Assembly (NCBI RefSeq): GCF_006716745.1
Contig: NZ_VFPP01000001.1
Coordinates: 4,092,001 to 4,156,000, forward strand
Direction: 5' to 3'
Length of the DNA stretch: 64,000 nt
From: Saccharothrix saharensis
GTDB lineage: Bacteria > Actinomycetota > Actinomycetes > Mycobacteriales > Pseudonocardiaceae
The notes under the pieces are model-generated. The model saw nothing but the letters and a program-made list of their open reading frames with translations. It made no database searches and was not told the origin of the DNA. Positions 1-59,328 of the stretch are shown here, in pieces (position 1 is the stretch's first letter; each line of letters opens with the position of its first letter). Made by a program: the position numbers and the translations under genes.

Positions 1-201
1 GTGACGGCGCTGAAGGGCGCCAAGCTCCTGCTCTTCACCGTCACCCAGGAGGGCGGTGTCCACTCGGTCTCCATCCCCCCGGAACTGGACGGCACCCACG
101 GCCGCCTGCGCGGCGCCGAAACGGCCCCCGACGGCTCGCTCTACGTCACCACCTCGAACGGCACCGACGACAAGATCCTCCGCCTCACCCCCTCCTCCTG
201 A
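1..201 (+). CDS. PQQ-dependent sugar dehydrogenase, C-terminal end (partial)
   Basis: Only the last 66 residues are present; the reading frame is open at the left edge, so the gene begins outside the window. The text [21 protein letters not shown] followed by DKILRL is typical of the last blade of the soluble glucose/sorbosone dehydrogenase beta-propeller family, which oxidises aldose sugars with pyrroloquinoline quinone, usually outside the membrane. The GTG at position 1 is probably internal. The TGA stop is followed immediately by the first copy of an intergenic repeat. Family assignment rests on a short segment, so subfamily and substrate cannot be given. Confidence 0.6.
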
Positions 202-355
202 CCCGCGAGTCGAACGCTCAGGTCCCGAGTGTCGAACGCTCAGGACCCCTGAATTCAACGTTCAGGACAGCCAACCCGGGCCCCACGCGTCCTGAGCGTC
301 GAATTCAGGGGTCCTGGAGGTTCGACACTCGGGACCTGAGCGTTCGACACGCGGG
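202..355. repeat. Giant inverted repeat of three 22-bp units per arm (copy A)
   Basis: Two arms of 67 bp (202-268 and 289-355) are inverted complements with about six mismatches, separated by a 20-nt loop. Each arm is itself three tandem variants of a 22-bp unit with the core GAGTGTCGAACGCTCAGG; the innermost unit carries GAATTC. The left arm starts on the base after the sugar dehydrogenase stop codon and the right arm starts two bases after the TetR stop codon, so it fills the whole gap between convergent genes. It could act as a bidirectional terminator. Related copies lie at 16522-16683 and 19627-19711. Not a family I recognise. Confidence 0.85.
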
Positions 356-357
356 GG

Positions 358-1008
358 TCAGCGGGTGCGGAGGCGGGGTTTGTGGTCCATGTGGGACAGG
401 CCCTTCCAGGCCAGGTTGACCAGGTGGGCGGCGACCTCGTCCTTCTTCGGCTTGCGGACTTCCAGCCACCACTGGCCCGTCAGCGCCACCATGCCGACGA
501 GGGCCTGCGAGTAGAGCGCGGCCAGCTTGCGGTCGTAGCCCTGGCGCGAGAAGTGCAGCCCCAGGATCGACTCCACCTGGGACGCGATGTCGTTCAGCAA
601 CGACGAGAACGTGCCGGTGGACGACGCCACGGGCGAGTCGCGCACCAGGATCCGGAAGCCGTCGGTCGAGCCCTCGATGTAGTCCAGCAACGCGCACGCC
701 GCCTGCTCCAGCAGCTCCCGCGGGTGCCCGCCGGACAGCGCGTTGACGATGTGGTCCATCAGGTACTGCATCTCGCGGTCCACCACGACGGCGTAGATGC
801 CTTCCTTGCCGCCGAAGTGCTCGTAGACCACGGGCTTGGACACGCCCGCCCGGTGCGCGATCTCCTCGATGGAGGTGACCTCGAAGCCCTTCTCGGCGAA
901 CAACGCGCGGGCCACGTCGAGCAGTTGCTCGCGCCGCTCCTTGCCCGTCATCCGCACGCGCGGCACCGGTGTCCCGTCGCCGCGCCGTCTCCCCGCCACC
1001 CAGACCAC
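358..1008 (-). CDS. TetR family transcriptional regulator
   Basis: A 216-residue TetR/AcrR protein. The N-terminal helix-turn-helix is clear (ALFAEKGFEVTSIEEIAHRAGVSKPVVYEHFGGKEG, read here as separate helices around residues 35-70), followed by a helical ligand-binding domain. It lies downstream of the acyl desaturase on the same strand, and tandem TetR-type palindromes sit in front of that desaturase. The likely role is therefore a lipid-responsive repressor of desaturase expression, which is an inference from position. A strong hairpin separates the two genes, so it may also have its own promoter. Start is uncertain: GTG at 1008 or ATG at 951, the latter giving a more usual N-terminus. Confidence 0.85.
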   Translation of the reverse strand: MVWVAGRRRGDGTPVPRVRMTGKERREQLLDVARALFAEKGFEVTSIEEIAHRAGVSKPVVYEHFGGKEGIYAVVVDREMQYLMDHIVNALSGGHPRELLEQAACALLDYIEGSTDGFRILVRDSPVASSTGTFSSLLNDIASQVESILGLHFSRQGYDRKLAALYSQALVGMVALTGQWWLEVRKPKKDEVAAHLVNLAWKGLSHMDHKPRLRTR

Positions 1009-3634: not shown

Positions 3635-3705
3635 TCCGCCATGGTGTAAAGGCAGCACCTCGGATTTTGGTTCCGATGGTCCAGGTTCGAATCCTGGTGG
3701 CGGAG
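3635..3705 (+). tRNA. tRNA-Gln (TTG anticodon)
   Basis: A full cloverleaf can be folded. The 7-bp acceptor stem pairs 3635-3641 with 3698-3704 and has a G discriminator. The anticodon stem-loop carries TTG, and the T-arm contains the GGTTCGAATCC motif. The D-loop is slightly short. CCA is not encoded. It lies directly upstream of the GGDEF gene. Confidence 0.93.
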
Positions 3706-15234: not shown

Positions 15235-16521
15235 GTGGCCGGGTTCGACGCTCGTCAGCACCTGCCGGCCCATCCGGCGCCGCTGTTGGGCGCGCAGGAT
15301 CTGCGGCAGGTCGCTTTCCACCGCCCGCCGCCCGGCCAGCCGGGGTACGACGAGGGTCAGGTGGACGCCTTCCTGGACCGCATCGAGGCGACCCTGCTGG
15401 GCCGGGACGACGTGACCGAGCAGGACGTGCGGCAGGTGCGGTTCAGACCCGCGCGGCCGGGTTACTACGCGGCCGAGGTCGACGCGTTCATGGACCTGGC
15501 GGCCGAGACGCTCGGCTCCACGCCCCAGCGGCGCCAGGCCACCGCTCCGGCGCAGGGCGCGCACGCCACGTCGACCGGGATGAGACCGGCGCCCCGGCTC
15601 ACGCCGCAGGACGTGCGCGGGGTGCGGTTCCACAAGCCCAGACCGGGCAACCGCGGTTACCACGAGGGCGAGATCGACGCGTTCCTCGACCGGATCGAGA
15701 ACACCCTGGCGGGTCGGGACGACCTGACCGCCCGCGAGGTGCAGGACTTCGAGTTCCGCTACGCCCCACCGGGTCAGGTGGGGTACGACGAGGACGACGT
15801 CGACACGTTCCTGGACCTCGTCGTCGTGACGTTGGAGCGGATGCCCCCGCCGCCCGTCCGCCCTTCCGCTCCCACCGCTGTTCCCCCCGCGGCTGTTCCC
15901 CCCGCGGCTGTTCCCGCCGCCGTTGTTCCGGCCACCGCGCCCGTTCCCCCTGTTCCCCCGCGTCCGCGCCCAGGCCCCGGCACGCGCCCGCTGACCGCCC
16001 GTGACGTGCGCACCGCCGCCTTCGGCAAGCCGCCGCGCGGCCGGCGCGGCTACCAGGAGTCGCAGGTCGACAAGTTCCTGGACCGGATCGAGAACACGCT
16101 GCTCGGGCAGGACGACCTGACCGCCCGCGAGGTCCGCGAGGTCCGCTTCAGCCGGCCCATGTTCGGCCGGCGCGGGTACGACGAGACCGAGGTGGACGCG
16201 TTCCTGGCACGGGTGGAGAAGCAGCTGGGCGACGGACCGCTGCCGCCGAGCGCGCTCCCGCCCGTGACGTCGTGGAAGCAGTTGCGGTTGATCAAGATCC
16301 CGCTGGCGGGGCCGGCGCAGCGCGGGTACCGGACGTCCCAGGTGGACCGGGTGCTGGAGGAGGTCGGCATCGCGCTGGACGGCATGATCGGCGCTTCGTC
16401 GTCCGAGGTGGCCAAGACCAAGTTCGCCACCTCCCTGATGGCGGGCCAGGGCTACGACTGCGCGTTCGTGGACGAACTGATGCCCCTCCTCGCCGCCGAA
16501 CTCCGCCGCCGCGGCCGCTGA
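15235..16521 (+). CDS. DivIVA-like repeat protein, eight repeats
   Basis: A 428-residue protein with eight modules of V-R-x-V-x-F, then GYDExxVDAFLDRIExTL, starting at about residues 16, 62, 121, 163, 247, 288, 340 and 383. An Ala/Pro/Val linker of short AVPPA repeats sits around residues 205-240. This is a many-repeat cousin of the protein at 12260-12868. DivIVA-like modules suggest membrane-curvature or pole/septum association, but the long parallel coiled coil of Wag31 is absent. The GTG start is preceded by an excellent GAAGGAGGT. Divergent from the fatty-acyl ligase gene. The stop codon runs directly into intergenic repeat copy B. Confidence 0.82.
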   Translation: MAGFDARQHLPAHPAPLLGAQDLRQVAFHRPPPGQPGYDEGQVDAFLDRIEATLLGRDDVTEQDVRQVRFRPARPGYYAAEVDAFMDLAAETLGSTPQRRQATAPAQGAHATSTGMRPAPRLTPQDVRGVRFHKPRPGNRGYHEGEIDAFLDRIENTLAGRDDLTAREVQDFEFRYAPPGQVGYDEDDVDTFLDLVVVTLERMPPPPVRPSAPTAVPPAAVPPAAVPAAVVPATAPVPPVPPRPRPGPGTRPLTARDVRTAAFGKPPRGRRGYQESQVDKFLDRIENTLLGQDDLTAREVREVRFSRPMFGRRGYDETEVDAFLARVEKQLGDGPLPPSALPPVTSWKQLRLIKIPLAGPAQRGYRTSQVDRVLEEVGIALDGMIGASSSEVAKTKFATSLMAGQGYDCAFVDELMPLLAAELRRRGR

Positions 16522-16683
16522 CCCGAGTGTCGAACGCCCAGGTCTCGAGTGTCGAACGCCCAGGTCTCGAGTGTCGAACGCTCAGGACCCCCGAATTCGT
16601 CACTCAGGACGTACCTGAACGTTGAGTTCAGGGGTCCCGAAGGTTCGACTCACGGGACCTGAGCGTTCGACTCACGGGACCTG
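16522..16683. repeat. Intergenic inverted repeat of 22-bp units (copy B)
   Basis: Immediately after the stop of the DivIVA-like gene come three tandem units with core GAGTGTCGAACGCCCAGGT or variants, then a fourth unit with GAATTC. After a short turn near 16610, about three units in the opposite orientation run to 16683. It lies between convergent genes (the ABC-F gene ends at 16734). Same family as copies at 202-355 and 19627-19711. Confidence 0.8.
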
Positions 16684-16733: not shown

Positions 16734-18503
16734 TCAGCCTTCGGCGGTTTCGGCGGCGGCCAGCCACTGGGCCTCGACGTCCTCCGCCTCGGCCAGCACG
16801 GCCTTCAGCTCGGCGTCCAACGCCAGCAGGCGCTCCGGATCGGTGGCGGCCTCGGCCAGCGCGGCGTGCAGCCGGACCTCCTTCTTCTGCAACGCCTCCA
16901 GCCGGCGTTCCAGGCGGGCCAGCTCCTTGCGCGCCGCACGCTGGTCGGCCGCCGACGACGGCGCGGACGTGGGCTTCGCGCTCGGCACGGCCGCCGCTTC
17001 CCTCTGCTTGTCCCGCCGCCGCAGGTACTCGTCGATCCCGCCGGGCAGGTCGGTCAACCCACCGTCGCCGAACAGCGCCACGACCTTGTCGCACACCCGT
17101 TCCACCAGGTAGCGGTCGTGCGAGATGACCACCAACGTGCCCGGCCACGAGTCCAGCAGGTCTTCCAGCTGCTGGAGCGTGTCGATGTCGAGGTCGTTGG
17201 TCGGCTCGTCCAGCAGCAGCACGTTCGGCTCGGCCATCAGCAACCGGCACAGCTGCAACCGCCGCCGCTCACCGCCGGACAGGTCGCCGACCGGCGTCCA
17301 CTGCTTCTGCGACGAGAACCCGAACCGCTCGGCCAGCTGCGACGCCGACATCTCCTGCTTGCCCAGCACGACCCGCCGCGCGACCTCCTCCACGGCCTCC
17401 AGCACCCGCATCGACCCGTCCAGGTCGTGCAGCTCCTGGCTGAGGTGCGCGAGCTTCACGGTCTGCCCCTGGACGCGCTTGCCGGTCTCCAGCTCGCGCT
17501 CACCGGCCAACGCCCTCAGCAGCGTCGTCTTCCCCGACCCGTTCACGCCGACGATCCCGATCCGGTCACCCGGCCCGATCCGCCACGTCAGGTCGCGCAC
17601 CAGCACCCGGTCGGGCACGGTCAGCGTCGCGTCCTCCAGCTCCAGCACCGTGCGCCCGAGGCGGCGCTTGGCGAACGCCAGCAGCTCCACGGAGTCGCGC
17701 GGCGGCGGCACGTCGGAGATCAGCGCCTCGGCGGCGTCGATGCGGTAGCGCGGCTTGGACGTGCGGGCGGGCGCGCCGCGGCGCAGCCACGCCAGCTCCT
17801 TGCGGGCCAGGTTGCGGCGCTTCTCCTCGATCGCGTCGGCCAGCCGGGCGCGTTCGGCGCGGGCGAAGATCCAGTCCGCGTAACCGCCCTCGTACTGCTC
17901 CACGCGGCCGCCGACGACCTCCCACGTGCGGCTGCACACCGTGTCCAGGAACCACCGGTCGTGTGTCACCACGACGAGTGCCGTGCGGCGGGCCAGCAGG
18001 TGCTCCGCCAGCCACCGGACACCCTCGACGTCCAGGTGGTTGGTCGGCTCGTCCAGCACCACCAGGTCCAGGTCCTGCACGAGCGCCGCGGCCAGCGCCA
18101 CCCGCCGCCGCTCGCCACCGGACATCGTGCCGACCGGCGAGTCCAGCCCGAACCCGGTGATGCCGAGCCCGTCCAGGATCGACCGGACCCGCGCGTCGGC
18201 GGCCCACTCGTGCTCGGACTCGAAGCCCAGCGGGTCGATCACCGCGTTGCGGACCGTCGACCCCTCCGGCAGCTCGGTGCGCTGCGTGACCACGGCCATG
18301 CGCAGGCCGCGGTTCTGGCTGACGCGCCCGTCGTCCGGCTCGGCGATCCCGGCCAGCACTTCCAGCAACGTCGTCTTGCCGCCGCCGTTGAGGCCGACGA
18401 CCCCGATGCGGTCGCCCTCGCCGACGCCGAGGGACACCCCGTCGAGCAGCGGACGCACGCCGAACGACTTGGAGACGTTCTCCAAGTTGACCAAGTTGGC
18501 CAT
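16734..18503 (-). CDS. ABC-F family ATPase, Uup-like
   Basis: A 589-residue soluble protein with two ATP-binding cassettes and no membrane segments. Cassette 1 has Walker A GLNGGGKTT, signature MSGGERRR and Walker B LVVLDEPTNHLD; cassette 2 has GVNGSGKTT, LSGGERRR and VLLLDEPTNDLD. After the linker comes a charged C-terminal coiled coil (about residues 520-585) of the kind Uup uses to bind nucleic acid. ABC-F proteins act on the ribosome or, for Uup, on branched DNA and ribosome-associated substrates. It follows ispE in the same direction with a 67-bp gap. Confidence 0.9.
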   Translation of the reverse strand: MANLVNLENVSKSFGVRPLLDGVSLGVGEGDRIGVVGLNGGGKTTLLEVLAGIAEPDDGRVSQNRGLRMAVVTQRTELPEGSTVRNAVIDPLGFESEHEWAADARVRSILDGLGITGFGLDSPVGTMSGGERRRVALAAALVQDLDLVVLDEPTNHLDVEGVRWLAEHLLARRTALVVVTHDRWFLDTVCSRTWEVVGGRVEQYEGGYADWIFARAERARLADAIEEKRRNLARKELAWLRRGAPARTSKPRYRIDAAEALISDVPPPRDSVELLAFAKRRLGRTVLELEDATLTVPDRVLVRDLTWRIGPGDRIGIVGVNGSGKTTLLRALAGERELETGKRVQGQTVKLAHLSQELHDLDGSMRVLEAVEEVARRVVLGKQEMSASQLAERFGFSSQKQWTPVGDLSGGERRRLQLCRLLMAEPNVLLLDEPTNDLDIDTLQQLEDLLDSWPGTLVVISHDRYLVERVCDKVVALFGDGGLTDLPGGIDEYLRRRDKQREAAAVPSAKPTSAPSSAADQRAARKELARLERRLEALQKKEVRLHAALAEAATDPERLLALDAELKAVLAEAEDVEAQWLAAAETAEG

Positions 18504-19536: not shown

Positions 19537-19626
19537 GCCATGCAGCGTACGGGCGTTTCCCCGTCTCCCGCTCCCACCACCCGCTGACCTGCGACGGAAC
19601 ACACCCCCCACCCACGCCGGCGCACC

Positions 19627-19711
19627 TGAATGCAGAACTCAGGGGTCCTGGACGTAGGACTCTCGGGACCCGGGTGTTCGACACGCGGGACCCGAGAGTT
19701 CGACACGCGGG
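19627..19711 (-). repeat. Intergenic 22-bp unit repeat, single-armed (copy C)
   Basis: Read on the minus strand, four tandem units (for example CCCGCGTGTCGAACTCTCGG and variants, ending with an inner unit containing CCCCTGAGTTC) start right after the metQ stop codon. Unlike copies A and B there is no opposite arm. It separates metQ from ispE and may terminate the metNIQ transcript. Confidence 0.75.
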
Positions 19712-20518
19712 TCAGACGGGGAGGACGGAGCCCGAGAAGGTCTGCTCGATGTAGGCCTTGACCTCGGACGACTGGAGCAGGGTCAGCAGGTCCTTGATCC
19801 GCTGGTCGTCCTTCAGCTCGGCCCGCGTGACCAGCCCGTTCGCGTTCGGGTTCCCCTCGGCCTTCTCCAGCGCCAACGCGTCGGAAGCCGGGTTGAGCCC
19901 CGCGTCGATGGCGTAGTTGCCGTTCACCACCGAGGCGTCCGTGTCGTCCAACGACCGCGGCAGCTGGGCGGCCTCCAGCTCCACGAACTCCAACCCCTTC
20001 GGGTTCTCCGCGATGTCGCGCACGGTCGCCGTCTTCTCCGTGCCCGGCGTCAGCTTGATCAGCCCGTTGTCCTGGAGCAGCTTCAGCCCGCGCGCCTCGT
20101 TCGTCGCGTCGTTCGCCACGGCCACCCGGGCGCCCGACGGCAGGTCGGCCAGCGACCGGTGCTTCTTCGAGTACACGCCCAGCGGCTCGAGGTGCACCGG
20201 CCCGATCCACTCCAGCGTCGCGCCGCGCTCCGCCTTGAACGTGTCCAGGTACGGCACGGTCTGGAAGTAGTTCGCGTCCAGCGACCCGTCCACGAGCGCC
20301 TCGTTCGGCTGCACGTAGTCGGTGAACTCCACGACCTCGACCTTCAGGCCCTTCGACGCGGCCAGGTTGTCCGCCACGTACCGCAGCACCTGGGCGTGCG
20401 GCACGGGGCTCACCCCGACCTTCAACGGCGCATTCGGGTCGGACGCGGCGCCGGTGTCGCCACTACCGCAGCCCACTGCGGTCAGCAGCACGGCCAGCAG
20501 GGCAGCACGAATACGCAT
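19712..20518 (-). CDS. metQ: Methionine-binding lipoprotein MetQ
   Basis: A 268-residue substrate-binding lipoprotein of the NlpA/MetQ family. It has a short lipoprotein signal peptide with lipobox TAVGC (Cys17). The mature part begins with LKVGVSPVPHAQVL and contains FTDYVQPNEALVDGSLDANYFQ, a hallmark of MetQ. Last gene of the metN-metI-metQ operon, 30 bp after metI. It delivers L- or D-methionine to the permease. Expression should be controlled by the upstream SAM riboswitch. Confidence 0.94.
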   Translation of the reverse strand: MRIRAALLAVLLTAVGCGSGDTGAASDPNAPLKVGVSPVPHAQVLRYVADNLAASKGLKVEVVEFTDYVQPNEALVDGSLDANYFQTVPYLDTFKAERGATLEWIGPVHLEPLGVYSKKHRSLADLPSGARVAVANDATNEARGLKLLQDNGLIKLTPGTEKTATVRDIAENPKGLEFVELEAAQLPRSLDDTDASVVNGNYAIDAGLNPASDALALEKAEGNPNANGLVTRAELKDDQRIKDLLTLLQSSEVKAYIEQTFSGSVLPV

Positions 20519-22436: not shown

Positions 22437-22444
22437 GTGATCCT

Positions 22445-22531
22445 CCATCGATCCTGGCTGAAGCACCTGCCCCCATGGAGGGGTGGTTGCTGCGGCGTCG
22501 TAGAGCCAGGTCTCTCGGCCGCTCGGGATGG
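22445..22531 (-). ncRNA. SAM riboswitch (SAM-I/SAM-IV clan) of metNIQ
   Basis: On the minus strand a three-helix aptamer can be drawn. P1 pairs CCATC (22531-22527) with GATGG (22449-22445). P2 pairs GCGGC with GCCGC around the CGAGAGA loop. P3 is CCACCCC/GGGGG. A six-base pseudoknot pairs CCTGGC (22510-22505) with GCCAGG (22458-22453). The conserved GCAACC and AGGTGCTTC segments of the SAM-I core are present. I see no clear P4, so a SAM-IV or SAM-I/IV variant is possible. It binds S-adenosylmethionine and should repress the methionine importer. Confidence 0.82.
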
Positions 22532-22538
22532 CACCACG

Positions 22539-40159: not shown

Positions 40160-40375
40160 CGGTCAGATCGTAGTGAGTGATCGACAACGGCCCTCCGTCG
40201 GACGTGCCTCCGGCGACTTACCCGGTCAGAGACCTGTAAGGCAATGAAATCAGACGGTTGCTCACATCACCCTCTTGGGCCTTCCTGAGATCCACCTCGG
40301 CCATGCATGCTGCACCGGCACATCTGCGGTTCGCACGTCGTCGGGGGACGAGCGCCGAATCCGAGGGGGCTCGTC

Positions 40376-43300
40376 GTGTTCACCCGCCGCACCGCGGCGC
40401 GGGGCTTCGGCCTGCGCAAAAGACCCACCGTCCTCGTCCTCGTCGCGGCACTGGGCGCGGCCGTCCTGGTCACGGCCGACCGGCCCGCCACACCGGAGGC
40501 CCCGCCGCCCGCGCTGACCGAGGCGCCGACCTCGGCCCTGGCCATGAACGCCGCCCAGCGCCAGGGCACGCCGGTCGAGGCGCTCGACCAGCGCACCGAG
40601 AAGCGGACCGTGTTCGCCCAGCCGGACGGCACGTTCACCGCCGACCTGCACGTCACCCCGCAGCGGGTGCGCAAGGGCGACGGCTGGGTCGCGCCCGACC
40701 CGGCGCTGGAGCGCTCGGACGCCGGCATCACGCCCAAGGGGACCGTGCCCGAGCTGGCCCTGTCCCGTGGCGGGACAGGCGCGCCGCTGGTCCGGATGGC
40801 GCGCGACGGCCACGAGTACACCCTCACCTGGCCGGGCGCGCTGCCCGAGCCCCACCTCGACGGCGCCACGGCCACCTACGCCGACGTGCTGCCCGACGTC
40901 GACCTCAAGATCACCACCACGGTCACCGGCTACGCCCAGCACATCGTGGTGAGGACTCCGGAAGCCGCGGCGAACCCCGCGCTCCAGCGCATCCGGTTCG
41001 ACCTGCGCACGAAGAACCTCCTGCTCAAGGCGCACGACGACGGCAGGCTCACGGCCACGAGCCCGTCCGGCGAGACGATCTTCGAAGCCGCGAGCTCGTG
41101 GATGTGGGACTCGGCGAAGCGCGAGACCGACAGCCCGCTGGAGGGTCGTTCGCCCGTCGGCGTCGAGATCACCGAGGACTCGCTGGCGCTGGTGCCGGAC
41201 GCGGCCGCGCTGGCCGATCCGCACGCGGTGTTCCCGCTGGTCATCGACCCGTCCTGGCACACGCCGGACAAGCAGAGCTGGACGTCGGTCTACGACGACG
41301 GCACGGACGCCATGCGCCGCGGCACGCACTGGAACGGTGCGAACTCGCAGGCCGAGACCGCCTGGTGGCTCAGCGGCATCACCACCGCCCGGTCCGGCAA
41401 GGCCTACAGCCAGAAGCTCGTGGTGCGCAGCTACTTCCAGTTCGACACGGGCTTCCTGGCCGGTCGGCAGGTGCTGAGCTCCAAGTTCATCACCTCGGTC
41501 GTCTACGGCCCGACCGCGTGCGGCACGTCGGAGACCCAGGCGCTGTACGACGCGGGAACGATCTACTCCGACACCAACTGGTACAACCAGCCCGCGGGCG
41601 GGCACCTGCAGAACGTGTCCGTGCCGTCGGTCTACAGCGGTTGCACCGGCTTCCAGGAGGTCGGGTTCGACAAGGCGGCGGGTGGCACCAACGCGGGTGG
41701 CGTGTCGACGTTCTTCCTCACCGCGGCGAGCGAGACCACGGACAACGCCTGGCGGAAGTACCACCCCGACCACACCAAGCTCTCGGTCAACTACAACCAC
41801 CAGCCGGGCAACGCCTACGAGGTGCGGACGGACCGCGACATGACGCCGTGCCACTGGTGCGCGGGCGTCACGTACCTGTCCGGCCCCGAGGTCACGTTGC
41901 ACGCGCGGCTCAGCGACCCCGACGACAGCACGCTGTTCCCCATGTGGGAGGTGACGCGCAACGGTGTGACGGTCCCGTACAACGGCGCGTCCAACAACTC
42001 CGGCGCGCCGTTCACCTCGACGCTCGACCTGACCGGCAAGCACGACCAGACCGTGTCGTGGCGGGTCAAGGCCAACGACGGCAACTGGGAATCGCCCGAC
42101 TGGGTCAACGGCCCGTCGTTCAAGGTGGACGTCGTCCCGCCGAAGAACCCGCCGCTCGTGGTCAGCCCGCTCTACCCGGAGGACAACCGCTGGCACGGCG
42201 GCGCGAGCGTGCCCGGCGCGTTCACCTTCACCGCGAAGGACGACGACGTCGACCACTTCGCGTACGGCTGGGACGGCGCCATGACGGAGACCGCCCACCC
42301 CGACAAGCTGGGCTTGGACGGCCAGGCCGTGGTCCCGCTGACCCCGCCCGGTGACGGCCCGCAGGACCTGCACGTGCGCAGCGTCGACCGCGCGGGCAAC
42401 CCCGGCCCGACCAGGATCTACCACTTCTACGTGCGCGGCGGCACCGGCCCGCTCGCGCAGTACGCGTTCGACGGCGACACCAAGGACTCGGCCTTCCTCG
42501 GCTGGCGTGACGCCACCGCGCACGGCGGGCCCTCGTACGTGCCGGGCGCGCTCGGTTCGGCGCTGCGCTTCGACGGCACCGGGAAGAGCGTCAGCGCCCC
42601 CAACGCGGTGCGCACGGACGCGAGCTTCTCCGTCTCGGCGTGGGTGCGGCTGGAGGACGACGCCCACAGCGCCGTCGTCCTGAGCCAGGAGAGCACGCGC
42701 GGCTACCCGGACCTGGTGCTGTGGTACCAGGTCGAGAGCCGGAAGTGGGCGTTCGGCATGCCGCGGGCCGACCTCGCCGGCACCGACGTCGTGGTGTCCG
42801 CCGCATCTCCCGTCGTCGGCTCCTGGACGAAGCTGACGGGCGTCTTCGACGCCTCGACGCGGCAGCTCAAGCTCTACGTCGACGGTGAGCCCGCCGAGAC
42901 GACGAGCCGCACCGGCCTGGACTGGCACGGCGGCGGCAACCTGCGCGTCGGGTACTCCCTCTGGGGTGGCAACGACGTCCAGAGCCCGTTCCGCGGTTCC
43001 GTGGACGAGGTCGCGCTCTACGACCGCGTGGTGAGCGACGCCGAGGTCAAGGCCGGTATCCGCGCGGACAACGTGCAGCTCGGCCACTGGCGGTTCGACC
43101 AGCGGGCGCCCTCGGTGAACGAGGTGTCCGGCGGTCCGGCGGTCGTGCTGTCGCCCGGCGTGTCCGCCACGACCACCGACATCGCGCTGAAGACCGGTGA
43201 CAAGCCCGCCGCGCTCCACTTCCCGGGGGCCGGCGAAGCCAGGAGCGACGGCCCGGTGCTGCGCACCGACCGCGACTTCACCGTGGCCGGCTGGGTCAAG

Positions 43301-46300
43301 GTCCCCTCCGCCGCGCCCGCCGACACGACTTACACCGTGGTGTCCCAGGACGGCACGGCGTCCAGCGGGTTCGAGGTGTTCCTGCGGAACGGCCAGTGGC
43401 ACTTCGGCGTCCGCGCGGCGGACGGTGCGGCGGGGTGGAACGCGCTCGCCACCACCACCGGCGGCGCGGGCACCGACTGGACGCACCTGACCGCCACGTT
43501 CGACGCCTCGACGCGCACGGCGCGGTTGTTCGTCGACGGGACCGGTGACGGCGAGGCCGTCGGCCTCGACACGCTGTGGGACGCCACCGGCGACCTGGTG
43601 TTCGGCCGGTCGCACGGCGGGAACCACCTCAACGGCTTCGTGGACGACTGGCGCGCCTACAGCCGGGTGCTCGCGCCGGAGGAGATCCAGGGCATCGTCG
43701 CCCAGGACGGCGTCACGGCGGGCACGTGGAAGCTCGACACCAACGCCGTCGAAGCCTCCCTGCCCGCCCGCGACGGCAAGCTCAACGGCGACGTGACGTG
43801 GACGCCGGGCCAGAGCAGCCTGCCCAACCCCGCCGACCAGGCGGCCCGGCTCTCCGGGGCCGGTCACGTCAGCGCGCCGCAGACGATCGACACCAGGCGC
43901 AGCTTCTCCGTCACCGCGTGGGCGAAGGTGGACCGGGTCGGCAGCGCGATGTCGGTCGTGTCGCTGGAAGGCCGGGCGGTCGGGGCGTTCGACCTGCGCA
44001 CCACCGACGACGGCCGGTGGGCGTTCACGATGGCCCGCCTCGACCACGGCTCGACGACGCGCGACCACGCGTACGGCGGGCCGGTGCAGGTCGGCGTGTG
44101 GACGCACCTCGCGGCGGGCTACGACCGGTCGACCGGCCGGATGTCGCTGTACGTCAACGGTGTGGCCGCCGGCTCCGCGCCGCACCTCGGCGCGTGGAGC
44201 CCGGACCCGGCCACGGGCAGCCTGCGCATCGGGCGCACCCTCCAGGGCACGACCGCCGTGCAGCACTTCAGCGGCGCCATCGACGACGTGTCGGTCTACA
44301 GCCGACCGCTGTTCGTGGACGAGGTCCGCCGGCTCGCGGGCCGTGACCTGGCGCTGGTGCACGAGTGGCGGCTGGACGAGCCGAGCGGCACGTCGGCGGC
44401 GGACTCGGTCGGGGTCCGTTCGGCGACGTTGACCGGCGGCGCGACGCACGCGCCCGGCCGGCTCGGCAGCGCGCTCGCGTTCGACGGCGCCGGCGCGGCC
44501 ACCACCCAGGGCGTCGACCTGCGCACCGACGAGAGCTTCACCGTGTCGGCGTGGGTCTACCTGCCCACCGGGCGCACGTGCGAGTTCACCGAGGACGTCC
44601 AGTCCTGCGAGTGGGTCGCGCTCAGCGTGGACGGGCAGCACACCAGCAAGTTCCGCCTCGGCCACCTGATCAACGACGACGGCCACCGGGACGGCAAGTG
44701 GTTCTTCGAGATGCCGGAGGGCGACGCTGTGGACGCCGTCGTCACCAAGGCCGCCGTCACCACCGCCGCCAGCGAGGTCGACACGTGGGTGCACCTCACC
44801 GGGGTCTACGACGCCAAGCACAAGAAGATCTGGATCTACGTCAACGGCACCCGCATCGGTGACGGCACGCTCAACACGCCGTGGCACACCACCGGTGCAC
44901 TCGTGCTCGGCCGGGGCAAGGTCGGCGGCACCCCGGCCCAGCACTGGGTCGGCAGCGTGGACGAGGTCCGCCTCTACACGGGCCCGCTGACCGACGACCG
45001 CGTGTCGACGCTGCACGGGTCGTACCCGGAGGAGAACGCGACCCCGACCATGCCCACGCCCACCGGGCACTGGAAGTTCAACGAGAACACCGGCACCACC
45101 GCCGCGGACGGCGTCGGCGGCCGGACCGCCACGCTCAAGAACGGCGCGGGCTGGATCGCCGGCCGCACGGGCCACGCCGCGTGGCTCGACGGCGTCGACG
45201 ACCACGCCGAGACGGCGGGTCCGGTGCTGCTCACCGAGCCCGGCAAGAGCTTCACCGTCGCGGCCTGGGCCTACCTGCACGGCTCGGGCAGCACCGGCTA
45301 CCGCACGGTCGTGGCGGAGGACGGCGACCAGGTCAGCTCGTTCCGGCTCGGGTACGACGCCGCGACCGACCGGTGGACCGGCGTGGTGCCGAAGGCCGAC
45401 TCGGACGGCGCGGAGACCTCCGTCGTGCGGTCGAGCACACCGGCCGCGAAGAGCAACTGGACGCACCTGGCGTTGAGCTACGACGCGGGATCGGGCCACC
45501 TGAAGCTGCACGTCAACGGCGTCCCGTCGGGCACGGTGGTCGGCGCGACGGCGATCAGGTCCACCGGTCCGCTCACCGTCGGCCGGATGAAGGCGGGCGG
45601 CGGCCCGGCCGGGTTCTTCCCGCGCGGTGTGGACGACCTGAGGGTGTACGACCGGGCGTTGAGCGACGGCGAGCTGAAGCTGGTGTCGGCCGACGTGACC
45701 GCGGTGGCGTCGGGCATGTGGCGGTTCGACGACGACACCGTGCGCGACCACTCCCAGCGCAACAACCCCACCGCCGCCAAGGGCCCGGTGTCGTTCACGG
45801 ACGGCGTCAACGGCCGCGCGCTGAAGCTCGACGGCACGTCCTACGCCACCACCACGGAGTGGGGCGCGTCCATGCGGGACAGCTTCACCGTCTCCGCGTG
45901 GGCCCGGCTGGAGGCGCGCGACGCGGTCGCCACCGTCGTGGGCCAGGACGGCTCGGTCGTGAGCGGGTTCGTGCTGCAGTACCGGCCCGAGGCCGATCGC
46001 TGGGTGTTCGGCGGGCCGACGCAGGACACCGAGCAGGCGCCGCTGGTGTGGGCGGCGTCCGCCCAGCCGCCGAAGACGAACTCGTGGACCCACCTGACCG
46101 GCGTCTACGACCGGCCCAACGGCAGGCTGCGGCTCTACGTCGACGGCAAGCTCGCGGGCATCCGGGACGGCGTCGCGCTGCCGGAGACCCTCGCCCCGCT
46201 GACCATCGGCGCGGGCAAGGTCGCGGGCAAGCCCGGGAACTTCTTCCGGGGCTCGATCGACGAGGTGCGCACCGAGCTGGGCGTCCAGACCGAGGCCGTC

Positions 46301-47089
46301 ATCGCGGGGCGCGGCGGTTACGCCGCCCCGGCGGCGGGGCAGCTCGGCGTCCTGGTCAACGGTTCGGGCGACCACGCGACGGGCAGCACGACCGGGCCGT
46401 TGCGGGAGGGCTACCACCTGCTGAGCACCCTGGGCACGCTGGTCGACCCGGCGCACGCGAACACGCGACCGCTGTACTCGTGCCTGTTCCACGACGACGT
46501 GTTCACCTCGCTGCTGGCCGACTGCGAAGGTCAGACCGTGCTCGGCGTGATCGGCGCGGTGTACCGCGTCGCGCCGTCGAACGTGCCGACGATCCCGATC
46601 TACCGGTGCGCCGGCGCGGGTGACCACTTCGAGTCGCGCCGGTCCGACTGCGCCGGCGCGAGGGTCGAAGGGCTCCTCGGTCACACGGTGGCGTACGCGG
46701 CGTTGACCCGGAACTTCAACCGGGACACCGGCGACCACGCGGTGACCGTGGAGGGCACGCCGGCCGGCTACCGGTCGGAGGGTCCGCTCGGCTTCCTGTC
46801 ACTGGTGGCCAAGTCCGGCACGCACCAGCTCATGAGCTGCCACGACGGCTACGACCAGTTCGTCTCGACCAGCGCCACGTGCGACGGCAAGACCGTCAGC
46901 GGCGGCCTCGGCTGGGCGTGGACGCAGCCACCGGCCGACGTGGCCACCCGGCCGCTCTACCGGTGCCGGACGTCCGCCGGGCAGGCGTTCGCCTCCCTCG
47001 AGCCGACCTGCGAGGGCCTGACCGCGGACGGCCTGCTCGGCCACGTGCAGATGGCCGTCCCGACCACCCAGCCGGTGTTCCCGGCCTGA
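40376..47089 (+). CDS. Giant secreted LamG/DNRLRE multi-domain protein
   Basis: A 2237-residue exported protein. A signal peptide or anchor spans residues about 17-40. Next comes an N-terminal region like that of actinobacterial RHS/wall proteins (to about 290), then a DNRLRE domain (about 290-475). Six LamG/concanavalin-like modules follow (about 690-1970), each opening with a W-x-F/L-D line and containing FTVSAWV and LYVDG. The C-terminus has Cys-containing repeats (YRC ... C-x-G ... LLGH) from about 1985. GTG 40376 follows a GAGGGGG site. Forty-two bases before the RHS toxin gene and co-oriented, so probably one operon. LamG modules bind glycans or proteins; a delivery or adhesion role is inferred. 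Confidence 0.85.
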   Translation: MFTRRTAARGFGLRKRPTVLVLVAALGAAVLVTADRPATPEAPPPALTEAPTSALAMNAAQRQGTPVEALDQRTEKRTVFAQPDGTFTADLHVTPQRVRKGDGWVAPDPALERSDAGITPKGTVPELALSRGGTGAPLVRMARDGHEYTLTWPGALPEPHLDGATATYADVLPDVDLKITTTVTGYAQHIVVRTPEAAANPALQRIRFDLRTKNLLLKAHDDGRLTATSPSGETIFEAASSWMWDSAKRETDSPLEGRSPVGVEITEDSLALVPDAAALADPHAVFPLVIDPSWHTPDKQSWTSVYDDGTDAMRRGTHWNGANSQAETAWWLSGITTARSGKAYSQKLVVRSYFQFDTGFLAGRQVLSSKFITSVVYGPTACGTSETQALYDAGTIYSDTNWYNQPAGGHLQNVSVPSVYSGCTGFQEVGFDKAAGGTNAGGVSTFFLTAASETTDNAWRKYHPDHTKLSVNYNHQPGNAYEVRTDRDMTPCHWCAGVTYLSGPEVTLHARLSDPDDSTLFPMWEVTRNGVTVPYNGASNNSGAPFTSTLDLTGKHDQTVSWRVKANDGNWESPDWVNGPSFKVDVVPPKNPPLVVSPLYPEDNRWHGGASVPGAFTFTAKDDDVDHFAYGWDGAMTETAHPDKLGLDGQAVVPLTPPGDGPQDLHVRSVDRAGNPGPTRIYHFYVRGGTGPLAQYAFDGDTKDSAFLGWRDATAHGGPSYVPGALGSALRFDGTGKSVSAPNAVRTDASFSVSAWVRLEDDAHSAVVLSQESTRGYPDLVLWYQVESRKWAFGMPRADLAGTDVVVSAASPVVGSWTKLTGVFDASTRQLKLYVDGEPAETTSRTGLDWHGGGNLRVGYSLWGGNDVQSPFRGSVDEVALYDRVVSDAEVKAGIRADNVQLGHWRFDQRAPSVNEVSGGPAVVLSPGVSATTTDIALKTGDKPAALHFPGAGEARSDGPVLRTDRDFTVAGWVKVPSAAPADTTYTVVSQDGTASSGFEVFLRNGQWHFGVRAADGAAGWNALATTTGGAGTDWTHLTATFDASTRTARLFVDGTGDGEAVGLDTLWDATGDLVFGRSHGGNHLNGFVDDWRAYSRVLAPEEIQGIVAQDGVTAGTWKLDTNAVEASLPARDGKLNGDVTWTPGQSSLPNPADQAARLSGAGHVSAPQTIDTRRSFSVTAWAKVDRVGSAMSVVSLEGRAVGAFDLRTTDDGRWAFTMARLDHGSTTRDHAYGGPVQVGVWTHLAAGYDRSTGRMSLYVNGVAAGSAPHLGAWSPDPATGSLRIGRTLQGTTAVQHFSGAIDDVSVYSRPLFVDEVRRLAGRDLALVHEWRLDEPSGTSAADSVGVRSATLTGGATHAPGRLGSALAFDGAGAATTQGVDLRTDESFTVSAWVYLPTGRTCEFTEDVQSCEWVALSVDGQHTSKFRLGHLINDDGHRDGKWFFEMPEGDAVDAVVTKAAVTTAASEVDTWVHLTGVYDAKHKKIWIYVNGTRIGDGTLNTPWHTTGALVLGRGKVGGTPAQHWVGSVDEVRLYTGPLTDDRVSTLHGSYPEENATPTMPTPTGHWKFNENTGTTAADGVGGRTATLKNGAGWIAGRTGHAAWLDGVDDHAETAGPVLLTEPGKSFTVAAWAYLHGSGSTGYRTVVAEDGDQVSSFRLGYDAATDRWTGVVPKADSDGAETSVVRSSTPAAKSNWTHLALSYDAGSGHLKLHVNGVPSGTVVGATAIRSTGPLTVGRMKAGGGPAGFFPRGVDDLRVYDRALSDGELKLVSADVTAVASGMWRFDDDTVRDHSQRNNPTAAKGPVSFTDGVNGRALKLDGTSYATTTEWGASMRDSFTVSAWARLEARDAVATVVGQDGSVVSGFVLQYRPEADRWVFGGPTQDTEQAPLVWAASAQPPKTNSWTHLTGVYDRPNGRLRLYVDGKLAGIRDGVALPETLAPLTIGAGKVAGKPGNFFRGSIDEVRTELGVQTEAVIAGRGGYAAPAAGQLGVLVNGSGDHATGSTTGPLREGYHLLSTLGTLVDPAHANTRPLYSCLFHDDVFTSLLADCEGQTVLGVIGAVYRVAPSNVPTIPIYRCAGAGDHFESRRSDCAGARVEGLLGHTVAYAALTRNFNRDTGDHAVTVEGTPAGYRSEGPLGFLSLVAKSGTHQLMSCHDGYDQFVSTSATCDGKTVSGGLGWAWTQPPADVATRPLYRCRTSAGQAFASLEPTCEGLTADGLLGHVQMAVPTTQPVFPA

Positions 47090-47131: not shown

Positions 47132-50100
47132 ATGCGGTCCGACAGACGTACCTTCCGCGCGCTCTCGAGAGCGCTCGTGGTCACCTTGGGGTTCTCCCTG
47201 GTGACGGCGGTCGCCCCGACACCGGCCACGGCCCAGGCGGGGCCCTCGGCCGCCCTGCCCGACCTCCCGTCCGTACCCGTGACCAGCCCGTCGTGGGGGT
47301 CGACGCCGACCGGGGAGAGCACGTCCCGGGCGCTGCGCGGCAACCAGTCGGCGTCCACCGCCGCACCCGACGGCGGCGGTTCGTTCAAGGCCACGCCGCT
47401 GTCGCCCACGGCCAGTTGGGACGTGGCCCGGCAGACCGGTGACTTCAGCTGGTCGTACCCGCTGCGCGTACCCCCGTCGCCGGGCGGTTTCGAGCCGTCG
47501 CTGGGGCTGTCGTACCGGTCGTCCCTGGTGGACGGTCGGACCAGCGCGACGAACAACCAGTCGTCGTGGGTCGGTGAGGGCTGGGAGCTCGGCGCCGGGT
47601 ACGTCGAGCGCAGCTACGGCGGGTGCACCGACGACACCGAGGGCACCGCCGCGCCCACCGACACCGGCGACCTGTGCTGGCGCAGCCACAACGCCACCGC
47701 CACCTACCCCGGCGGCGGCGGGATGCTGGTGCGCGACGAGGGCAGCGGCACGTGGCGGCAGAAGTCGGACAACGGCGCCCGGATCACCCTGGGCACCGGC
47801 GTCGACAACGGTGACGACAACGGCGAGCACTGGACGATCACCACGGTCGACGGCACCACCCACTACTTCGGTTCCCGCAAGGAGTCGAACTCGACGTGGA
47901 CCGTGCCGGTGTTCGGCGACGACCAGCACGAGGAGTGCAACGGCACGACGTTCGCCACCTCGTGGTGCACCCAGGCGTGGCGCTGGAACCTCGACAAGTC
48001 GGTCGACGCGCGGGGCAACGTCATCCTGTACGACTACGAGACCGAGACGAACTCCTACGGGCTCAACGCCGAGGACGCCGCCGTTCCGTACGTGCGCGCG
48101 GGCACCCTGAAGTCCATCGTGTACGGCCTGCGCGACGAGGTGGCCGTGCAGGCGTCCGCGCGGGTGGACTTCGAGCTGGCGGACCGGTGCGTGCCGGGCA
48201 GCGACTGCGTGCCGGAGAAGCCGGAGAACTGGCCGGACACCTCGTTGACCGACCGGTGCGTCGCGTCGACGTGCGCGGACCTGCACTCGCCCACGTTCTG
48301 GTCGACCAAGAGGCTGAGCCGGGTCGTCACCAAGGTGTGGCGCGGCACCGGCTTCGACGACGTCGACTCCTGGTCGCTCGGGCACGAGTTCCCCGATCCC
48401 GGCAGCGGCGAGAAGGCCGCGCTGTGGCTCAAGAGCATCACCCACACCGGGCACGTCGGCACGACCGACGTGGCGCTGCCGGCGGTGACCTTCGAGGGCA
48501 CCCGGCTGGCCAACCGGGTCGAGCAGCCGACCGACGCCGGGCCGCTCCAGCGGTTCCGGCTGACCGCGATCATCTCCGAGGCGGGCGGCATCACGTCGAT
48601 CGCCTACGCGGACCCGGACTGCGCGGCCGGCTCCATGCCGGCGAGCGCGGAGTCCAACACGCAGCGGTGCTTCCCGGTGACGTGGACGAAGAAGGACTTC
48701 GCCGAGCGCACCGACTACTTCCACAAGTACGTGGTGGCATCGGTGACCACGTCGGACCGGTTCGGCGCCAACGCCATGCAGAAGGTGTCCTACGAGTACC
48801 TGGACGGCGCGGCCTGGCACTTCAGCCGGTCCGAGTTCACCCCGGCGGACCGCAAGACCTGGGACGAGTACCGCGGCTACGCGCGGGTGAAGGTGCGCAC
48901 GGGGCTCCCGACGGACACCAGCGGGCCGACCACGCTGGCCGAAGAGCGGTTCTACCGCGGCATGGGCGGCACGTTCACCGACTCGGCGGGCGGCGCGCAC
49001 ACCGACCACGACTGGCTCCAGGGCGTCCGGTTCGAGTCGACGACCTACCTCGGTGAGAGCGAGGAGGTCGTCAGCCGCACCATCGACACCCCGTCGTGGC
49101 AAGGCCCCACGGCCAGCCGCGGTGAGTACCAGGCTTACGTGGTCCACAACGCGTCCTCGACGACTTACACGGCGTTGAAGGCCGGGGGCTGGCGGACGAC
49201 GAAGACCGAGTCGACCTACGACGACCTCGGCCTCGTGCTCACCGTGAACGACCTCGGTGACACGACCACCGACGCGGACGACAAGTGCGTCACCACGACC
49301 TACGCGCGCAACACCGCGAAGTGGCTGATGAACCTCCCGTCCCGCCAGGAAGCCGTGGCGGTCGCCTGCGGCACGCCGCCGACGTTCCCGGCGCACGCCC
49401 TGGCCGACGAGGTGTTCGCCTACGACGGCCAGGACTTCGGCGTCGCACCCGCCAAGGGCGACCTGACGTCCAAGAAGTCGCTGCGCGACCGCCCCCAGGC
49501 GGCCCCCGGCTACGGCGTCGACGGCTCGGCCACCTACGACCGGTTCGGCCGCCCGCTGACCATCACCGACGGCGCGGGCAACGAGTCGAAGCTCGCCTAC
49601 ACCCCCGCGGACGGCGGGCCGCTCACCAAGACCGTCACCACCGACGCCCTCGGCTACACGACGACGTTGACGGTCGAGCCGGCGTGGGGTACGCCGACCA
49701 GGACGGTCGACGCCAACCTGCGCGTCACCGAGGTCGCGTTCGACGCGCTGGGCCGCAACACCGAGGTGTGGCTGCCCAACCGGAGGAAGACCACCAACCC
49801 GTCCGGCAGCGCCAAGTACAGCTACCTGATCCGCAACGACGCCCCGTCCGCGGTCAGCGAGACCAAGGTCGGCCCGAACGGCAACCACACCACCAGCACC
49901 ACCCTCTACGACGGCCTCTACCGGGTCAGGCAGGTCCAGACGCCGACCCACGGCGGTCGGGTGCTCGCCGAGACCCGGTACGACTCGCACGGCCGCCAGT
50001 ACCGGACCACCCAGCCGTACTACAACGCCGCGCCCGTCGACACCACGCTGTGGACCGCGGCGGACAACGCCGTGACGAGCGTGACCTGGACCAGGTTCGA

Positions 50101-53100
50101 CGGCGCCAGCCGCCCGGTGAAGCAGATGTTCTACGCCGGCGCGCAGAAGAAGTGGGAGTCGACCACCGCCTACGACGGCGACCGGGTGCACGTCACCCCG
50201 CCGGCCGGCGGCACCGCCACCACGACCGTCTCCGACGCCCGCGGCCGCACCACCGAGCTGCGCCAGTACCACGGTCCCACGCCCACGGGCACGTTCGACG
50301 CGACGACCTACGCGTACTGGCCGACCGGCGACCTGGCGTCCGCGACCGACCCGGCGGGCAACACGTGGCGGTGGACCTACGACGTCCGCGGCCACCTCAC
50401 GCGGTCCGAGGACGTCGACCGCGGCGCGACCACGACGGTCTACAACGCGCTCGGCCGGCTCGAGACGTCGACCGACGCCCGGGGCCGCACCACGTGGAAC
50501 GGGTACGACAAGGTCGGCCGGCGCACCGAGGTCCGCGAAGGCGGCCCGACCGGTCTCCTGCTGCACAAGTACGCGTACGACACCGCGGGCGGCGGCAAGG
50601 GCAGGCTCGCGTCGGCCACCCGGTACGTCAACGGCGCGGCCTACACCCAGCAGATCGGGAGCTACGACTCGCGGTACCGGCCGGCCAGCGTGTCCGTGAT
50701 CATCCCCGAGGCCGAAGGCCTGCTCCGGAACACCTACACGTCCTACTACAGCTACAACCAGGACGGCACCGTCGCGGGCGAGACGTTCGCCGCGGCGGGC
50801 AACGTGCCCGCCGAGACCGTGCTGCACGTGTACGACGACTTCGGGCGGCCCACGACCACCAACGGCGGGATCGACGGGACGACGACCACCATCGCCTCGC
50901 AGACGTCGTTCACCCGGCTCGGTGAGCTGGAGCGGATCCACCTCGGTGACGGGGGCAAGCGCACCTGGCTGTCGTACTACTACGAGTCCGACACCCGGCG
51001 GCTCAACCGGTACATCGTCGACACCGAGACGCCCGCGCCCATGCAAGCGGACGTCTCCTACTCGTTCGACGACGTCGGCAACGTCCGGTCCGTCTCGGAC
51101 GCGCCCCGCGACCAGCCCGTCGACCTGCAGTGCTTCACCTACGACCACCTGCGGCGGCTGACCGGGGCGTGGACGCCCGCGGGCGGCGTCGGCTGCGGTC
51201 CGCAGCCGACGACCACGGGCCTGTCCGGTCCCGCGCCGTACTGGCAGTCGTACGAGTACGACAAGGCGGGCAACCGCCTCACGGAGGTCGACCACAAGGC
51301 CGGCGGCGACACCACGCGCACGTACAAGTACCCGGAACCCGGCACGCCGCAGGCGCACACCCTGCGCAAGGTGGTCCAGGAGGGCCCGGGCGGGACCCGG
51401 ATCGAGGAGTTCGGCTACGACGCGGCGGGCAACACGGTCACGCGGACCGAGCCCGAGGGTGTCCAGGAGCTCGACTGGGACGCCGAGGGCAAGCTGGTCG
51501 AGGCGTCCGGCGGGGTGACGTTCATCTACGGCGTCGACGGCACCCGGCTGCTGCGCAAGGACGCCGAGTCCACCACGCTCTACCTCGGCAACCAGGAGGT
51601 GGAACTGGCGGTCGGCGCGCCCACGCCCGCCGTGACCAGGTACTACACCCACGCGGGCCACACCGTCGCGATGCGCGAGGGCAAGACCAGGCTGACCTGG
51701 CTCGGCTCCGACCACCAGGGCACCTCGCACGTGTCGGTCGACGTGGGTTCGATGACGGCCACCAAGCGCCGCCAACTGCCGTTCGGCGGCGAACGCGGCC
51801 CGGCCGTGCTGTTCCCGGGCGAGCGCGGGTTCGTCGGCGGCACGAACGACGAGGCCACCGGCCTGGTCCACATCGGAGCCCGGCAGTACGACCCCGACCT
51901 GGGCAGGTTCCTGTCGGTCGACCCGATCATGGACATCACCGACCCGCAGCAGTGGCACGGCTACGCGTACGGCAACAACTCGCCGCTGACGTTCAGCGAC
52001 CCGACCGGTCTCGCCTACTGCGACTACAACTCGTGCCCCGGCGACGGCGGTCACAACCCGAACGGGCCGGTCAACAACAGCAACGGCGACTGCGTCCGCA
52101 ACTGCCAGAACAAGCACGACAACTACCAGCCCGGCGGCGACCCCCCGGCCGGCGCGTACTACCCGCCGATCACGAACCACGGCGACGGCTGGTACGGCGG
52201 GTACGACTCCGAGACCGGTGGCACGACGCTGAACGGCGTCCCGACCCCGTGGACCGCCGCGGAGGCCGAGAAGATCCTGCCGAAGGTCGTCGCGGGCTAC
52301 GGCGGCCCCAACGTCCACCCGCTCGGCAGCGAGATGAACGTCGAGAACACCTACGGCGCGCTGCTCGCGTTCTGCCGGGAGAGCGACGACTGCTCGCTCG
52401 ACGACTACCAGGAACTGCAGTGGCCGTGGATCCAGTTCCTCGGTGAGACCGGCGGCCTGGACGGCGGCGGCCGGGGCGGCGGCGGCAAGCTGGCGCGGTC
52501 GGTCAAGCAGCTCGTGGACATGATGGACGGCTGCGGACCGAACAGCTTCGACGGCGACACCCTCGTGCTGATGGCCGATGGCACGACCAAACCGATCGAG
52601 GACCTCGAGGTCGGCGACGTGGTGCTCAACGCCGATCCGGAGAGCGAGCGGACCGAGTCCCACGTCGTCACCGCTGTCCACGTCACGGACGCGGACAAGC
52701 AGTACGTGGACCTGACCGTCTCGACCACCGACGGCCCGCGGACGATCACGACGACGGCCCACCACCCGTTCTACGAGGCGTCCCGGCACCGGTGGATCCA
52801 CGCCGGCGACCTGCGTCCGGACGACGTCCTCGACACCGGCTTGGGCGGCCGTGCGACCGTCCTGTCCGCACGGGCATACGCGGCTACCATGCGGACCTAC
52901 AACCTGAGCGTCGACACGGTCCACACGTACTACGTGCTGGCGGGCCGCACGCCGGTCCTCGTCCACAACGCGCCGCCGGCCGTGTGCCGGATCACCTCGA
53001 AGCCCGACTCACCGAACTTCCAGAGCAAGACCATGACCCCGTCCAGCATCAGGGACTACCGGATCGACGTGGAGAACCCCGCTCCGGGCAAGAAGGGGGC

Positions 53101-59255: not shown

Positions 59256-59328
59256 TGGAGCTGAGGGGAATCGAACCCCTGACCTACTCGATGCGAACGA
59301 GTCGCGCTACCAACTGCGCTACAGCCCC
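59256..59328 (-). tRNA. tRNA-Ala (CGC anticodon)
   Basis: 73 nt; the acceptor stem GGGGCTG pairs with CAGCTCC and has an A discriminator. The anticodon loop TTCGCAT gives CGC. The T-arm GGTTCGATTCC is canonical. CCA is not encoded. The decayed element region lies on its 3' side, the usual integration side. Confidence 0.95.

Follow-up and report, generated by a model that had tools for sequence, protein, structure and literature searches.

The 154-bp gap between two convergent genes at the start of the window (the whole 64-kb stretch of DNA analysed, corresponding to positions 4,092,001-4,156,000 of the 8.92-Mb chromosome of Saccharothrix saharensis, genome G000) holds one array of a 22-bp repeat family that is dispersed over the genome, and the long hairpin predicted for it would tentatively serve to protect the 3'-end of the mRNA and to stop read-through, a role to which we give a little short of an even chance. 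Arrays of this family recur at orthologous gaps while the sequence of their units has been homogenised across each species, and it is this combination that forms the striking and well-supported part of our findings.

The arrays of the window and the grammar of the repeat

The array in the 154-bp gap (copy A, Table 1) is a 67-bp inverted repeat with three 22-bp units per arm, exactly as the original prediction had described it: the arms at 202-268 and 289-355 are identical at 61 of 67 positions (91%), and 2 nt separate the right end of the array from the stop of the TetR gene (TCA, 358-360). Both of the related arrays claimed elsewhere in the window are present as well, copy B with two arms and copy C with one, the latter comprising four units when its cap is counted and ending 0 nt from the stop of gene 19712-20491. 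The accompanying rule that arrays begin zero to two bases from a stop codon holds for copies A and C and for the left end of copy B (0 nt past the TGA at 16519-16521), but fails for the right end of copy B, which is found 55 nt from the stop of the next gene (16734). Matches to the unit core (≤3 mismatches) number 9 in the 64-kb window against 0.07 expected, and an 18-base core affords 379 matches genome-wide at the same tolerance against 3 in the control: the proposed repeat family is thus dispersed well beyond the three copies of the window. In a survey of three 400-kb stretches of this genome (1.2 Mb), an iterated 21-base profile identified 166 units, compared to 4 control hits on reversed sequence, and a broader profile identified 33 arrays of at least two units. 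Elsewhere in the window, two adjacent and very large open frames are found on the forward strand (40307-47089 and 47132-53275; 2260 and 2047 aa), the first of which exhibits six concanavalin A-like lectin (Laminin_G_3) stretches together with a weak match to PF07953 (lectin-type).

Table 1. Array copies in the window, their parts and the genes that flank them (window coordinates).
Feature	Position	Strand	Remarks
Copy A, whole mirrored array	202..355	both	fills 154-bp gap between convergent genes
Copy A, left arm	202..268	+	units 202-222, 224-244; cap unit 246-266; 0 nt past TGA at 199-201
Copy A, right arm	289..355	-	cap 291-311; units 313-333, 335-355
Copy B, left arm	16522..16608	+	units 16522-16542, 16544-16564, 16566-16586; divergent cap 16588-16608
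Copy B, right arm	16614..16678	-	cap 16614-16634; units 16636-16656, 16658-16678
Copy C, single arm	19625..19711	-	cap 19625-19645; units 19647-19667, 19669-19689, 19691-19711
Gene left of copy A	1..201 (3' end; start lies before window)	+	glucose/sorbosone dehydrogenase domain
Gene right of copy A, convergent	358..966	-	TetR-type regulator
Gene left of copy B	15235..16521	+	DivIVA domain
Gene right of copy B, convergent	16734..18503	-	ABC transporter ATPase domains
Gene whose stop touches copy C	19712..20491	-	NlpA-type lipoprotein

A half-array starts with at least one unit (CCCGAGTGTCGAACGCTCAGG or a variant of it, plus one linking base) and is closed by a cap, which is a distinct unit type (the CCCCTGAATTCAACGTTCAGG type) and is innermost in each arm of arrays resembling copies A and B. 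Of 427 pairs of neighbouring units within one arm, 419 are spaced at precisely 22 bp. Half-arrays were found in three forms: single, facing each other with the caps innermost (type I, as in copies A and B) and back-to-back with the caps outside (type II); the 107 arrays collected over 15 species comprise 44 of type I, 20 of type II, 41 single and 2 other arrays, with the arm, unit-consensus, form and middle-sharing analyses all confined to arms of at least two units. The best-conserved positions of the unit (C3, G4, G6, G8, T9, C10, C14 and C18) flank the freely varying positions 11 and 12, and the symmetry of this conservation about the centre of the unit is not significant (r 0.44, p 0.10). 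As judged by eye, the consensus of the individual species starts mostly with C[CG]CG (ACCG in G079) and ends mostly with AGG, AGA or GGA. Positions i and 22-i within the unit pair no more often than the column composition predicts, and the unit as an RNA stem-loop was ruled out on this lack of co-variation.

Placement at gene ends and recurrence at orthologous gaps

The genomic context was analysed with gene calls from a purpose-made codon-usage caller rather than from the annotation, using the 105 of 107 arrays with a gene on both sides (2 were dropped). When orthologues are pooled over the 15 species, 59 of the 391 convergent gene pairs carry an array, as do 43 of the 1419 pairs that are co-directional and 3 of the 380 that are divergent; the corresponding counts for G000 alone are 17 of 213, 14 of 709 and 2 of 210. 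None of the 105 arrays lies inside a called coding sequence. The median distance between an array and the nearest stop codon is 1 nt; it falls between -15 and +10 nt for 74 of 102 arrays and is 0-3 nt for 45 of them. The negative distances cluster at -5, -7, -11 and -12 nt, where the unit or cap itself provides the stop codon. Of the 43 arrays between co-directional genes, 37 are closer to the stop upstream than to the start downstream. The preference for convergent over divergent pairs and the median distance of 1 nt thus bear out the suggestion that these arrays are concentrated at gene 3'-ends. One of the two seemingly divergent arrays of G000 (at 3022032) is preceded by an apparent reading frame that the caller missed. 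A back-to-back array at G000:C1 4061819-4061944 (L062) lies between co-directional genes whose orthologues overlap by 4 nt in the gene calls of G063 and G064; its site looks like the inside of an operon or coupled gene pair, which speaks against the 3'-end reading. A link between array form and gene arrangement (caps inward with convergent, caps outward with co-directional genes) is not claimed, with the p of 8.6e-6 over all arrays becoming 0.25 once orthologues are collapsed to 40 loci.

The closest named records to G000 belong to Saccharothrix. The original prediction had suggested a search of the genome and of related genera: beyond the 379 matches in the genome itself, a two-unit sequence model matches 73 of the 390 genomes of the taxonomic family, spread over 22 of its 46 genera, and 16 of the 25 genomes of the genus. 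The best E value is below 1e-6 for 35 genomes in 14 genera and lies between 1e-6 and 1e-3 for the other 38, some of which may be chance matches, the search having been made without a shuffled control. Scoring covered the 16 best candidates of each genome, making the per-genome match counts floors; full scoring of 11 chosen genomes from nine other genera afforded 26-136 matches each. From an order-level draw 11 of 298 genomes match, all of them within the same taxonomic family. Among 30 loci fetched from other genera, the array touches a stop codon in at least 15 (by eye).

The gap occupied by copy A shows how variable an individual site can be: the adjacent TetR protein has a best match that is 94-100% identical in each of the 25 genus genomes, and the adjoining gap varies highly. 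An array is present in this gap in 13 of the 25 genomes as judged by eye (reduced to a single unit pair in G074) and in the remaining genomes the gap is short or different, spanning approximately 6-22 nt with no obvious hairpin in the array-less G056, G058, G067 and G071. The sequence of this gap in G071 (L140) is TGA-CCCTGGG-TCA, and its short palindrome may be the remnant of a lost array. Stretches of up to 100 kb around this locus contain arrays in 13 of 14 species, the exception being G058.

Grouping of the arrays by at least one orthologous flanking gene afforded groups of 12, 10, 9, 9, 9 and 8 members, followed by smaller ones; the form of the array is mostly uniform in five of the six large groups and mixed in one. 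Under the stricter requirement that both flanking genes be orthologous and lie next to each other, the gap was filled in 294 of 371 comparisons within the main clade of 11 species, and the same gaps looked up in four species outside the clade were filled in 79 of 170 cases. In a tree calculated from two gene ends, the 11 array-bearing species form one clade (support 91/95, which is below the star threshold of the tool). From the recurrence at orthologous gaps we infer that the positions are inherited, with repeated independent insertion being a formal possibility. G071 and its sister G060 carry a complete array, five or six units long, in one gap that is without any in nine other compared species. 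A classical hairpin borders this array on one side, and the stop to its right follows after 10-11 nt; since the hairpin has been retained beside it, the arrangement reads as the gain of a whole array by insertion in this lineage. At a second gap, the arrays of G071 (254835) and G060 (26829) lie 0-6 nt behind the stop and the downstream sequence is as in five array-less relatives; a second gain is not claimed here, because a single arm is also present in this gap in G079, a species that does not belong to the clade, which makes loss in the five relatives possible. In G065 (C58), the gap orthologous to G071 237908, which otherwise bears a hairpin, includes extended tracts of G and C; these may reflect an error of assembly or be another unusual palindrome.

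Homogenisation of the units and pairing of the arms

The middle three bases of the unit are mainly CGA, CCA, CCT or CGT, with TGT in G079. We compared these middles over 70 arrays from 10 loci and 14 species, using groups of at least three members for which one orthologous flank sufficed: identical middles make up a fraction of 0.456 when the species is shared but the locus is not, of 0.244 when the locus is shared but the species is not, and of 0.245 where neither is shared. Permutation of the species within loci reduced the first value to 0.258 +/- 0.021, with a maximum of 0.340 in 2000 trials, and an effect of the locus is nil in these 70 arrays and 10 loci (p 0.27). With all groups included the fractions become 0.61, 0.24 and 0.22 (same order of classes), and for the cap units, which share their spelling less, they are 0.33, 0.28 and 0.27. 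Several unit spellings or types can coexist in one genome. The unit sequence thus tracks the species and not the locus, which is concerted evolution at kept positions; interlocus conversion, re-copying or a co-evolving binding partner are possible routes to it.

The RNA of copy A is predicted to fold into a hairpin of -132 (+ strand) or -134 kcal/mol (- strand), compared to about -56 (+/- 4) and -61 kcal/mol for block shuffles of two-base pieces, and in prediction both copies A and B form GC-rich hairpins at the gene end on both strands. Single-arm arrays fold modestly better than swap shuffles (30 each), with a mean z of -1.6 and z < -2 in 12 of 36 and 14 of 36 cases on the two strands. The claim that pairing between the arms is maintained stood in one respect: at three type I loci compared across species, the arms of the same array are identical at 17.07 of 21 positions against 15.30 for arms taken across species, with the higher value found in 23 of 24 cases (p 1.8e-7), and hence the arms do change together. 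As evidence of compensatory change this result is weakened, because the genome-wide concerted evolution of the units alone largely predicts it, and the claim that pairing as such is kept was not supported within species, where exchanging arms costs little, or by the 41 of 107 arrays that have one arm. In the exchange test, the duplex energy per nt is -1.535 for native and -1.458 for swapped arms (p 0.03), and the identity is 0.808 and 0.789, respectively (p 0.05), in 42 arrays: 15 of the 64 two-armed arrays were dropped, and for 7 of the remaining 49 their species offered no second array to swap with. When the units are taken separately, type I arrays show a small excess over swapped arms for the first unit (16.97 vs 16.12 of 21, p 0.03), with p 0.08 for the second unit and p 0.37 for the cap; in type II arrays it is absent (first unit 16.83 vs 17.45 of 21, p 0.88). 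Mirrored order of the unit types is not significant overall (p 0.18 and 0.06) or in arrays with arms of equal length (p 0.89 for 12 type I arrays; p 0.16 for 9 type II arrays). Thus, arm pairing is strong in prediction, but given the small cost of swapping arms and the lack of mirrored unit order, independent selection on pairing is weakly indicated.

Hairpins also occur in gaps of this kind where no array is found, with a stem of at least 10 bp in 99 of 184 convergent array-less gaps of 20-400 nt. Where a type I array lies between convergent genes, the rest of the gap has a median length of 4 nt, and another stem of at least 10 bp is found in 3 of 33 such cases, there being little room left for one; convergent single arms have a separate stem of this length alongside in 10 of 21 cases. 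By eye, some orthologous gaps contain an array in one species and a plain GC-rich hairpin in another.

Relation to known elements and possible roles

The nearest comparison is with REP, BIME and REPIN elements, described as extragenic repeats of ~20 bp that are present in hundreds of copies, often as opposed pairs able to fold together, and that are found mainly between convergent and same-direction genes, downstream of coding regions (PMC3733652, PMC3116915). It is also reported that REP ends often provide the stop codon of the flanking gene (PMC3733652), and REPs within 15 nt of a stop codon can stall ribosomes in E. coli (PMC12306157). The arrays resemble REPs and BIMEs in being short, high-copy, extragenic and mostly located between convergent or same-direction genes, and their units likewise sometimes supply the stop codon (at gaps of -5, -7, -11 and -12 nt). 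However, the REP unit is a kept palindrome with complementary changes whilst the array unit shows no such co-variation; the GTAG/CGTC tag given for REPs (PMC3733652) is missing from the unit consensus as judged by eye; REPs are accompanied by a Y1 (RAYT) transposase, PF01797, which G000 lacks; and the arrays are built head-to-tail with a period of exactly 22 bp and carry a distinct cap, their positions recurring while their sequence evolves in concert. Membership of the REP family was rejected on the missing tag and, in G000, the missing Y1 transposase. PF01797 is present in 5 of the 25 genus genomes (G060, G061, G067, G071 and G079), of which G067 has no match to the array model.

Bidirectional intrinsic terminators are hairpins between convergent genes that are symmetric for both strands, and the arrays likewise form predicted hairpins between convergent genes on both strands; the array stem is however far longer, its tandem repeats are shared genome-wide and one-armed forms exist. 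No T run was read from the sequence beside the hairpins of copies A-C, and because of this they are not classical intrinsic terminators. The MIRU repeats of mycobacteria are tandem intergenic repeats at stop codons with units of ~50-100 bp that are not mirrored: the arrays share with them, in related actinobacteria, the tandem arrangement in intergenic regions at stop codons, but have a unit of 22 bp (419 of 427 pairs) and are often mirrored. No Rfam family matches the array at gathering score, the window containing only a SAM riboswitch (RF00162, 56 bits, 22442-22534, - strand) and two tRNAs (3635-3705, + strand; 59256-59328, - strand) by this measure. Plasmid, phage and viral collections afforded no copy of the array, the pattern used for the viral collection being narrow, and the open-licence papers listed in literature searches afforded no description of this family; a term search of the S. 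espanaensis genome paper (PMC3469384) gave no occurrence of "repeat" or "palindrom". The original impression that no described family resembles these arrays agrees with both Rfam and the open-licence papers listed, REPs being close in location and likely function. By analogy, the 22-bp arrays are likely a REP-like 3'-end element in terms of function, and a family of their own in terms of their features.

For the role favoured here, arrays directly behind stop codons would be transcribed as part of the message of the gene, and the RNA of a mirrored array would fold into a long hairpin that could both shield the 3'-end of the mRNA and halt transcription before the neighbouring gene is reached. 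The hairpin alone leaves the exact period, the cap and the concerted evolution unaccounted for. A putative protein-binding array is an alternative that we regard as somewhat unlikely: here the 22-bp unit would be the site of a DNA- or RNA-binding protein acting as a roadblock or in chromosome organisation, mirroring would reflect the presence of two gene ends and the spelling of each species would follow changes in the putative protein. The spacing that is exact in 419 of 427 cases despite strong sequence divergence, the conserved positions on both sides of the variable positions 11 and 12, the lack of i/22-i co-variation (the unit not being kept as an RNA stem) and the occurrence of single arms and back-to-back arrays are all consistent with such a protein, but conservation is not significantly symmetric (r 0.44, p 0.10), several unit types occur within one genome, and a fixed period is also the result of tandem duplication alone.

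A mobile or self-spreading repeat without host function, copied into harmless gene ends and homogenised by ongoing copying or conversion, appears rather unlikely to us. It would accommodate the whole array in G071 and G060 where nine other compared species have none, the effect of the species without an effect of the locus on the unit sequence and the patchy presence over genera; against this, orthologous gaps are filled in 294 of 371 comparisons in the clade and 79 of 170 outside it, rather than being scattered as would be expected of an active element, the placement right at the stop rather than anywhere in the gap goes unexplained, G000 is without a Y1 transposase (PF01797) and no copy was found in the plasmid, phage or viral collections. 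Finally, a translational attenuator, in which by analogy to some E. coli REPs a hairpin less than 15 nt from the stop would slow the terminating ribosome and lead to mRNA cleavage, would suit the 45 of 102 arrays at 0-3 nt from the stop, inside the 15-nt limit given for REPs (PMC12306157), but is improbable in that mirroring, the cap and the preference for convergent pairs are left unexplained.

The arrays might, as a possibility that we hold with considerable reserve, represent a new class of bacterial 3'-end element: arrays locked in position behind stop codons throughout a family of actinomycetes, whose sequence is rewritten in each species by copying or conversion, or by tracking a partner protein, such that the places are inherited and the spelling is not. 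If the positions are indeed inherited and the sequence homogenised, there must be either a process that moves information among dozens to hundreds of dispersed sites or a partner that acts in trans, and either of these would, as far as is known, be new for 3'-end elements. Should the role in termination prove true, the arrays could be useful as compact two-way insulators, and the existence of both filled and empty orthologous sites makes the function of REP-like repeats testable.
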